Assembly: GCA_017511465.1 (NCBI GenBank)
Contig: JAFWJU010000033.1
Span: 1 to 32,361, forward strand
Reading direction: 5' to 3'
From: Eggerthellaceae bacterium
GTDB taxonomy: Bacteria > Actinomycetota > Coriobacteriia > Coriobacteriales > Eggerthellaceae
DNA: 32,361 nt
Both the position numbers and the translations under genes were made by a program. This document shows positions 26,981-27,893 of this stretch, one piece after another. The notes below the pieces were generated by a model. The model was not told where the DNA came from, searched no databases, and was given only the letters and a program-made list of their open reading frames with translations. The number at the start of each line of letters is the position of its first letter. Position 1 is the stretch's first letter.

Positions 26981-27460
26981 ATGAAGCGAGCAGTCACCCC
27001 CGGCACATTCGACCCCATCACATACGGCCATCTTGACGTCATCACGCGTGCTGCGCAGCTCGTCGACGAGGTCGTGGTAGCGGTAGCGGCTTCGCCCAGC
27101 AAAAGCCCGCTATTCAGCTTGGAGGAACGCACCGAGCTCGCGCGTGAGGCCACCAAGCATCTCGATAACGTGCGCGTGGAGCCCTTCGACGGCCTGCTCG
27201 TGGACTTCGCACGCGAACAGGGCGCGTCCGTCATCGTCAAGGGCCTGCGGGCTATCACCGACTTCGAATACGAGTTCCAGATGGCCGCTCTCAATTACCA
27301 GTTGGCCAACGAGCTCGAGACGGTGTTCATCATGTCGCCGCCTCAATACATGTACCTGTCGTCGTCCATCGTCCGTGAACTCGCACGTCTGCAAAGCCCC
27401 GTCGACCAGTTCGTCCCGCCTACCGTGGCGTCGGCTTTGGAGAGAAAGTTCGTCGACTAA
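26981..27460 (+). CDS. coaD: Pantetheine-phosphate adenylyltransferase
   Basis: Penultimate coenzyme A enzyme, joining ATP and 4'-phosphopantetheine to dephospho-CoA. The nucleotidyltransferase motif TPGTFDPITYGH (the (T/H)xGH site) is at residues 5-16; KGLRAITDFEYEFQMA and the second ATP-binding motif near YLSSSIVRELAR are also typical. Length 159 aa is standard. Zero-base spacing from rsmD, with GGAGGGAGAGG upstream, means it is in the same transcript. A large structured non-coding element starts right after its stop. Confidence 0.97.
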   Translation: MKRAVTPGTFDPITYGHLDVITRAAQLVDEVVVAVAASPSKSPLFSLEERTELAREATKHLDNVRVEPFDGLLVDFAREQGASVIVKGLRAITDFEYEFQMAALNYQLANELETVFIMSPPQYMYLSSSIVRELARLQSPVDQFVPPTVASALERKFVD

Positions 27461-27466
27461 CAAGCA

Positions 27467-27652
27467 GGAAAGCACGTTTGCGGCCGTTGGTGCCTGTCCA
27501 CGACTCGTGGACTGCGATGAGCGCAGGCGCAGCGGGAGCGAGGACTGTTTGAGCCCGCGAAGCGGGCGAGTTCCGCAGCTGCTGCGCTGGAGCGAAGAGC
27601 GGTTAGTCCACGCTGGAGTGAGACAGGCGCGCAACGGCCGCAGACGTTTTCC
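27467..27652. ncRNA. Long rod-like inverted structure of unknown class
   Basis: About 186 nt fold into a nearly continuous hairpin. From outside in: GGAAA (27467-27471) with TTTCC (27648-27652); ACGTT (27474-27478) with GACGT (27643-27647, one G-U); an 11-bp perfect stem TGCGGCCGTTG (27479-27489) / CAACGGCCGCA (27632-27642); GCCTGTC (27492-27498) / GACAGGC (27622-27628); CGTGGACT (27506-27513) / AGTCCACG (27605-27612); GCGCAGC (27527-27533) / GCTGCGC (27581-27587); and the apical GCCCGC-GAA-GCGGGC (27553-27567). No ORF is supported. T-run TTTT (27647-27650) overlaps the outer stem on the plus strand. It could be a structured RNA, a MITE-like element or an oversized terminator of the coaD transcript; I cannot name a family. 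Confidence 0.7.
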
Positions 27653-27725
27653 CCGTTGACCGCTCGCGTGCGCTCCGTTGGGCGATGCACGTGATTGCCC
27701 CCGCATCCCATCTTGTTCCAGATGG

Positions 27726-27731: not shown

Positions 27732-27742
27732 GACCGCGTTAC

Positions 27743-27816
27743 CGCGCTGCGACTGACGGGCTAACGTGGATGACCACGGGGGAGCGGCGCGCACATATCA
27801 TGCCGACCGTCTGGGC
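27743..27816 (+). promoter_or_regulatory. ZTP riboswitch (pfl motif)
   Basis: Aptamer sensing ZTP/ZMP (AICAR phosphates), the purine intermediates that build up when folate-dependent formylation falls. P1 is CGCGCTGC (27743-27750) with GCGGCGCG (27784-27791, one G-U). P2 is GTGG (27766-27769) with CCAC (27774-27777) around ATGA, followed by the conserved GGGGGAGCG. The 3' domain has CCGTCTGGGC (27807-27816), matching the consensus CCGCCUGGGC. The pseudoknot pairs GACGG (27755-27759) with CCGTC (27807-27811); against the consensus as I recall it, both strands are changed in a compensating way. It lies directly upstream of the purine genes it would be expected to control. Confidence 0.92.
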
Positions 27817-27893
27817 TAGCCGCGTTTCGCAAGAAGGTCGGATTATCGCCACAGGCCTCCAAACGCAACACGGCGATTCGAGCATTTGGAGGG
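27803..27893 (+). promoter_or_regulatory. Expression platform of the ZTP riboswitch (translation control)
   Basis: The ribosome-binding site GGAGGG (27888-27893) lies in TTTGGAGG (27885-27892), fully complementary to CCTCCAAA (27856-27863), an anti-ribosome-binding-site. A competing stem ATCGCC (27845-27850) / GGCGAT (27872-27877) crosses the sequestering stem, so both cannot form. CCGACC (27803-27808) can pair with GGTCGG (27836-27841), which would break the aptamer's 3' domain. Together these give two exclusive folds, with the ligand expected to favour an open start. No U-run is present, so control is probably translational. Confidence 0.7.

Follow-up and report, generated by a model that had tools for sequence, protein, structure and literature searches.

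The rod-like inverted structure behind coaD in the window (the whole 32,361-nt stretch analysed, contig JAFWJU010000033.1 of an Eggerthellaceae bacterium) is probably one of the dispersed copies of a non-autonomous, mobile palindromic element, the unit of which is an arm, a structured core of ~130 nt and the inverted arm, with an outer stem that is new at each insertion. The core folds as one hairpin, and copies have entered intergenic DNA in either orientation as well as flexible protein linkers, where they keep the reading frame. Insertion takes in both arms, which are private to each insertion and then decay by ordinary uncompensated mutation.

The upstream gene nearest the rod is coaD (26981-27460, + strand), and downstream of it is a ZTP riboswitch (27739-27823). 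The + strand from 27440 to 27680 folds as a single long rod at -129.1 kcal/mol versus -101.0 ± 4.7 for dinucleotide shuffles (z = -6.0), with none of 200 shuffles as stable; the - strand also folds, less well (z = -5.1). The 5′ private arm, GGAAAGCACGTTTGCGGCCGTTGGTGCCTGTC (27467-27498, +), begins 7 nt past the coaD stop codon and pairs at 88% identity with its reverse complement, the 3′ private arm (27622-27652, +), and it has no other occurrence anywhere in its own genome. Between the arms is the conserved core (approximate borders 27499-27621, +), which BLAST and alignments show to be shared by 25 or more further copies in the genome. It comprises an internal loop whose 5′ side, GCGAGGACTGTTTGAGC (27538-27554, +), is (nearly) invariant in 58 genus copies, a covarying tip hairpin, GCCCGC-GAA-GCGGGC (27553-27567, +; helix 7, two-sided changes at 4 of its 6 pairs), and the 3′ side of the loop, GCGAGTTCCGCAGC (27566-27579, +), invariant in the alignment of genus copies. 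The original prediction of a rod-like inverted structure at 27467-27652 is borne out by this z score and by covariation across the 58 genus copies, and its statement that the structure codes for nothing holds at the coaD locus but not for the family, other copies being translated in frame within genes.

An ordinary, species-variable terminator hairpin of coaD is what the position might at first suggest, the rod following the stop codon and ending near TTTT, and relatives having other hairpins there. As a full account it is refuted, and next to no probability attaches to it, with the core at at least 25 other loci and in many species, inside genes included. Features of intrinsic termination are also wanting in the family: by inspection no consistent T-run follows the arms, and orientation is unbiased. 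The element is also neither specific to coaD nor confined to one orientation. Behind coaD the element is absent in every genus relative whose spot could be read, the sequence there holding other hairpins or nothing; in one relative (G003) a different palindrome occupies the spot.

The BLAST check for further copies, proposed with the prediction, gave at least 26 in the own genome (Coriobacteriia-like), together with copies in genus relatives. Most own-genome matches span the middle ~95-130 nt only, at 82-91% identity, a range that applies over query positions 73-167 and longer. Of 14 relatives in the genus at least 12 have the element; the 10 other genera of the family that were tested lack it, and it recurs in a few members elsewhere in the order. 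Absence from all relatives and absence of covariation had been named as outcomes that would tell against the structure; relatives within the genus do carry copies, and covariation is pronounced. The consensus structure from 58 aligned genus copies has 41 pairs, 25 of them with two-sided compensatory change. Compensatory cells number 349 versus 109 ± 8 in shuffles, a level that none of 500 shuffles reaches, and paired cells amount to 95.3%, versus 80.4% in shuffles and 33-44% when the partners are slid, which abolishes the covariation signal. At variable pairs on the motif strand G.U occurs in 26 cells versus 8 for A.C, and two G.U pairs in the core are nearly invariant; since a G.U on one strand is an A.C on the other, the motif strand is the folding strand.

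What the ~130-nt family core keeps, while its helices covary, is the invariant internal loop GCGAGGACTGTYTGAGC...GCGAGTTCCGCAG, and the least variable part of all is GCGAGGACTGTYTGAGC / GCGAGTTCCGCAGC. In one variant (L302) the GGA/TCC helix is exchanged for CCCCGCG/CGCGGGG and CTGTYTGAG/CGAGTT is kept, so that it is the loop that matters and not the letters of the helix. A tandem GA/GA beside a bulge in the internal loop resembles, by inspection, a kink-turn. A further form of the element, at three loci (L047, L051 and L253), has an extra ~90-nt branch (GGACCGAGCGCCCGGAAAA...GAGCCAGTGGCTC...) in place of part of the core. Strong covariation, the G.U excess on one strand and an invariant loop with tandem G.A-like positions retained across phyla are what would be expected of a structured non-coding RNA family, either an sRNA or an mRNA 3′-end element, kept for regulation. 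Such a family is nevertheless an unlikely explanation, given the lack of orientation bias to neighbouring genes, positions that are not conserved, copies inside coding regions on either strand, the private arms and the decay. Among the options of a non-coding RNA, a non-autonomous mobile element and a DNA-structure element that had been offered for the rod, it is the mobile element that is favoured, by the 26 or more dispersed copies, the absence behind coaD in each genus relative readable there, an orthologous empty site and the in-frame insertions.

The arms are of a different character from the core. In the 40 clearest copies they are 18-61 nt long, 74.5% GC and often perfect. (In own-genus copies the 5′ strand of the private arms is G-rich, with G at 41% and A at 11.5%, and GC is above that of the flanks.) The privacy of the arms is starkest at two loci of one genome (L054 and L055 of G012), where the cores are 100% identical and the perfect arms unrelated. 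More generally, the arm pairing score has a median of 40 within a copy and 14 between copies, 38 of 65 own-arm pairings exceed the best of 514 mixed-arm controls, and arm-to-arm similarity between copies is close to the shuffled level. The arms of the 26 own-genome copies tested have no match elsewhere in that genome, and neither phages nor, for the three arms searched, viral contigs yielded a source, though this is a weak test. Where a copy is orthologous between two genomes (L342 in G005 and L343 in G010) the arms are shared with 6 changes, none compensated, which argues that arms pass down vertically and drift, a new pair being acquired only on movement of the core.

A stop codon lies no more than about 25 nt from the start of most intergenic copies in the own genome. 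For 59 genus copies orientation is unbiased, with 14 sense and 10 antisense between tandem genes, 12 between convergent and 5 between divergent ones. Four own copies sit in frame within protein linkers, one each in an ABC exporter, MurD, peptidase U32 and transketolase, and the existence of orthologues with and without the element identifies the in-frame copies as insertions. MurD has the element in G000, G008, G009 and G012, with both orientations represented, is empty in G005, G010 and G014, with a linker of 2-3 codons (6-9 nt), and in G003 and G007 holds unrelated palindrome families in place of the element. In peptidase U32 the element is present in G000 and G008, and a decayed half-copy is common to G003 and G007. 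The ABC exporter linker without an insert is 39-66 nt in most species. That linker in G007 (L390) has an in-frame GAGCGAAGCGAGGAATCT...CAGGATGACA repeat, apparently of another repeat family. In the same linker of G012 (L389) and G003 (L397) there is a second core, TCGCTTGTCCTCGC...CTGCGGAATCGC, between perfect arms of 38 and 28 bp whose sequences are unrelated, so that several families of core may possess private arms.

The one clean empty site pairs a G003 copy (L009) with its orthologous site in G007, CGCGTCTAAACGCG, a dyad where the ends of two convergent genes overlap. The insert of ~190 bp, both ~37-bp arms included, splits this dyad, and the flanks are contiguous with a 2-3 bp overlap; the empty site being devoid of the arms, they arrived with the insertion. 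A somewhat different picture is given by the G005 copy behind rpmB, where the arms, over their outermost 12 nt, match a native gene end, again a small dyad, indicating that part of an arm can derive from the target. From these two cases (CGCGTYTAAACGCG; GTTGTGGAGTAA/TTACTCCACAAC) the centres of small dyads already present may be the insertion targets. The target-site duplications for which a search had been advised did not materialise in consistent form among 42 copies, direct repeats at whose ends average 3.1 versus 2.95 for random partners, with none shared.

The G005 case speaks for template switching, in which the core lands and an inverted copy of one native flank is made on the other side. 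There the convergent gene's conserved VVE-stop falls within the right arm, and the left arm, beside a GTTGTGG also present in relatives, repeats it in inverted form; arms elsewhere often begin at stop codons, and palindromes are a known setting for template switching (PMC7202029). Against it, nothing of the 37-bp arms is to be seen at the G003/G007 empty site, and both arms in MurD are foreign, as the linker measures 6-9 nt when empty and what is left of it in G000 is about as short. A rule that one arm is always inverted native flank, which fits G005, was rejected as it fails at the G003/G007 site, and template switching as the general explanation is rather improbable. A two-step origin, with long private palindromes such as terminators pre-existing and the core entering their tips, would accord with insertion sites that are small dyads and with other palindrome families at the same spots in relatives. 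It is held to be unlikely, since core-free palindromes are rare (7 with arms of at least 13 bp in 236 kb of the own genome) and their longest arm is 20 bp, versus up to 61 bp with a core, and since the G007 empty site is without a long palindrome. Unlike the private arms, the palindromes that G003 and G007 have without a core belong to ordinary multi-copy families. These palindromes (L254, L255 and L069) are in dozens of copies with conserved arms and share hot spots such as the MurD linker with the element.

For the mobile element with arms renewed at each insertion, the following route can be envisaged. The mobile or recognised form would be the core strand, as RNA or single-stranded DNA. 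Before or during integration the stem of the hairpin might gain 20-60 nt of new GC-rich sequence, which could be copied to the other side by fold-back (self-primed) synthesis, and the open end of the hairpin would then be joined into the target. Stem extension with fold-back copying would yield perfect arms that differ each time and need no genomic source. A bolder proposition, which is put forward tentatively and is possible rather than probable, is that this is a new kind of mobile element of which only the structured core is inherited, with each transposition making a fresh private self-complementary stem, either untemplated or templated outside the genome, and with an invariant recognition loop in several phyla.

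The search for a mobilising enzyme brought none to light: Y1 transposases and reverse transcriptases are not consistently present in host genomes, and their patchiness among carriers implies either an unrecognised protein or host polymerases. Dependence on reverse transcriptase was rejected on this ground, RVT_1 having no match in G000, G008, G012 or G014 (all at least 90% complete). Mobilisation of a REP-type repeat by a RAYT or IS200-like Y1 transposase could be entertained because the palindromes are short and dispersed, inverted pairs occur in proteobacteria and the own genome has one Y1 gene. However, 30 Y1 loci of relatives (each ~3 kb) lack the motif, which led to rejection of RAYT/Y1 mobilisation, and G007 and the copy-rich G009, both carriers, have no Y1 match. 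In addition, an element of ~130 nt plus long private arms contrasts with REPs of 20-40 nt tagged by GTAG or CGTC (PMC3733652), and the genes between paired motifs are not Y1; the REP explanation is thus regarded as very unlikely.

The string of the loop's 5′ side at 27538-27554 extends well beyond the genus. Among 84,980 species genomes scanned, GCGAGGACTGTYTGAG-N(5-34)-CGAGTTC occurs in at least 118 stretches from several phyla, those listed being from Beta- and Gammaproteobacteria, Nitrospira, Bacteroidota, Patescibacteria, Myxococcota and Coriobacteriia, with isolates (Dechloromonas hankyongensis, Litorivivens lipolytica and Niveibacterium) included. In other clades the motif caps longer hairpins, the outer portions of which are peculiar to each clade, and in 55 of 129 such instances the outer arms pair better than 95% of mismatched controls. 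Most of the genomes are MAGs at draft level, the own one being 90% complete, gene calls were made here from codon usage, and private arms are demonstrated mainly in the MAG genus; the presence of the motif in isolates as well means that it and its stems are not explained by chimeric assembly. Plasmid, phage and E. coli records had no motif match and viral contigs had it in one only. A coding reading of the Patescibacteria motif (EDCL...RVPQ) was dropped, the motifs being located between annotated-size ORFs. The judgment that no named class fits stands for Rfam and for the literature searched: Rfam covariance models gave no relevant match for the window, even at a permissive threshold, or for 10 loci of other phyla, and the motif strings were not found in that literature. 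At six Beta- and Gammaproteobacterial loci (L090, L138, L142, L143, L148 and L153) two inverted copies of the motif face outward at a distance of ~200-230 bp, within units of ~500 bp bounded by TACTTTCTTTTGGCGAAGCAAAAGAAAGTA-type hairpins. Some inverted pairs are spaced at 0.9-1.3 kb (L106, L111, L114, L144 and L147), and in the three examined (L106, L144 and L147) one ordinary-looking gene is between the pair, in a cassette-like arrangement.

Of known systems, the Rickettsia palindromic elements (Ogata et al. 2000, 2002, as summarised in PMC10969869) are the closest in behaviour. Like the present element they are dispersed palindromes of ~100-150 bp, both intergenic and, in frame, within unrelated genes, without a transposase of their own; the difference is that their sequence is conserved along the element, whereas here only the core is conserved and the arms are private. 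The core motif here also spans several phyla, and the comparison is one of descriptions across different host phyla. A more distant likeness is to REP, BIME and REPIN sequences of RAYT (Y1) (PMC2817692, PMC3733652), which are dispersed extragenic palindromes, some in inverted pairs and some in coding regions; from these the element differs in having no GTAG/CGTC tag in the core alignment, no adjoining Y1 gene, a far greater length and private arms. Bacterial MITEs (ERIC, BOX, RUP and Correia; PMC10969869) are likewise small, non-autonomous and structured, but their terminal inverted repeats are common to all copies with target duplications alongside, and the arms of the element are unshared. 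The coding palindromes of Nematomorpha mitochondria (PMC6649704) are also long, perfect, locus-specific inverted repeats in protein genes; there, however, both arms encode native conserved residues and there is no conserved core, while here a core and foreign arms have been inserted. The mitochondrial hairpin elements of fungi and sponges (e.g. PMC2800124, PMC4478555) are described as mobile hairpins as well.

Set against these, the element is a dispersed palindromic one distinguished by conservation that does not extend along its whole length, by lack of REP tags and by lack of shared terminal repeats. To our knowledge, private perfect arms round a conserved core have not been reported for the mitochondrial hairpin elements, and we know of no described insertion sequence, MITE or REP that has a conserved core with arms renewed at each insertion. 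If the interpretation is correct, bacterial mobile DNA can keep a conserved core and remake long terminal arms every time it inserts. The near-invariance of the internal loop across phyla points to a putative recognition factor. In-frame copies add 50-90 residues to essential enzymes such as MurD, and the element therefore also reshapes proteins.
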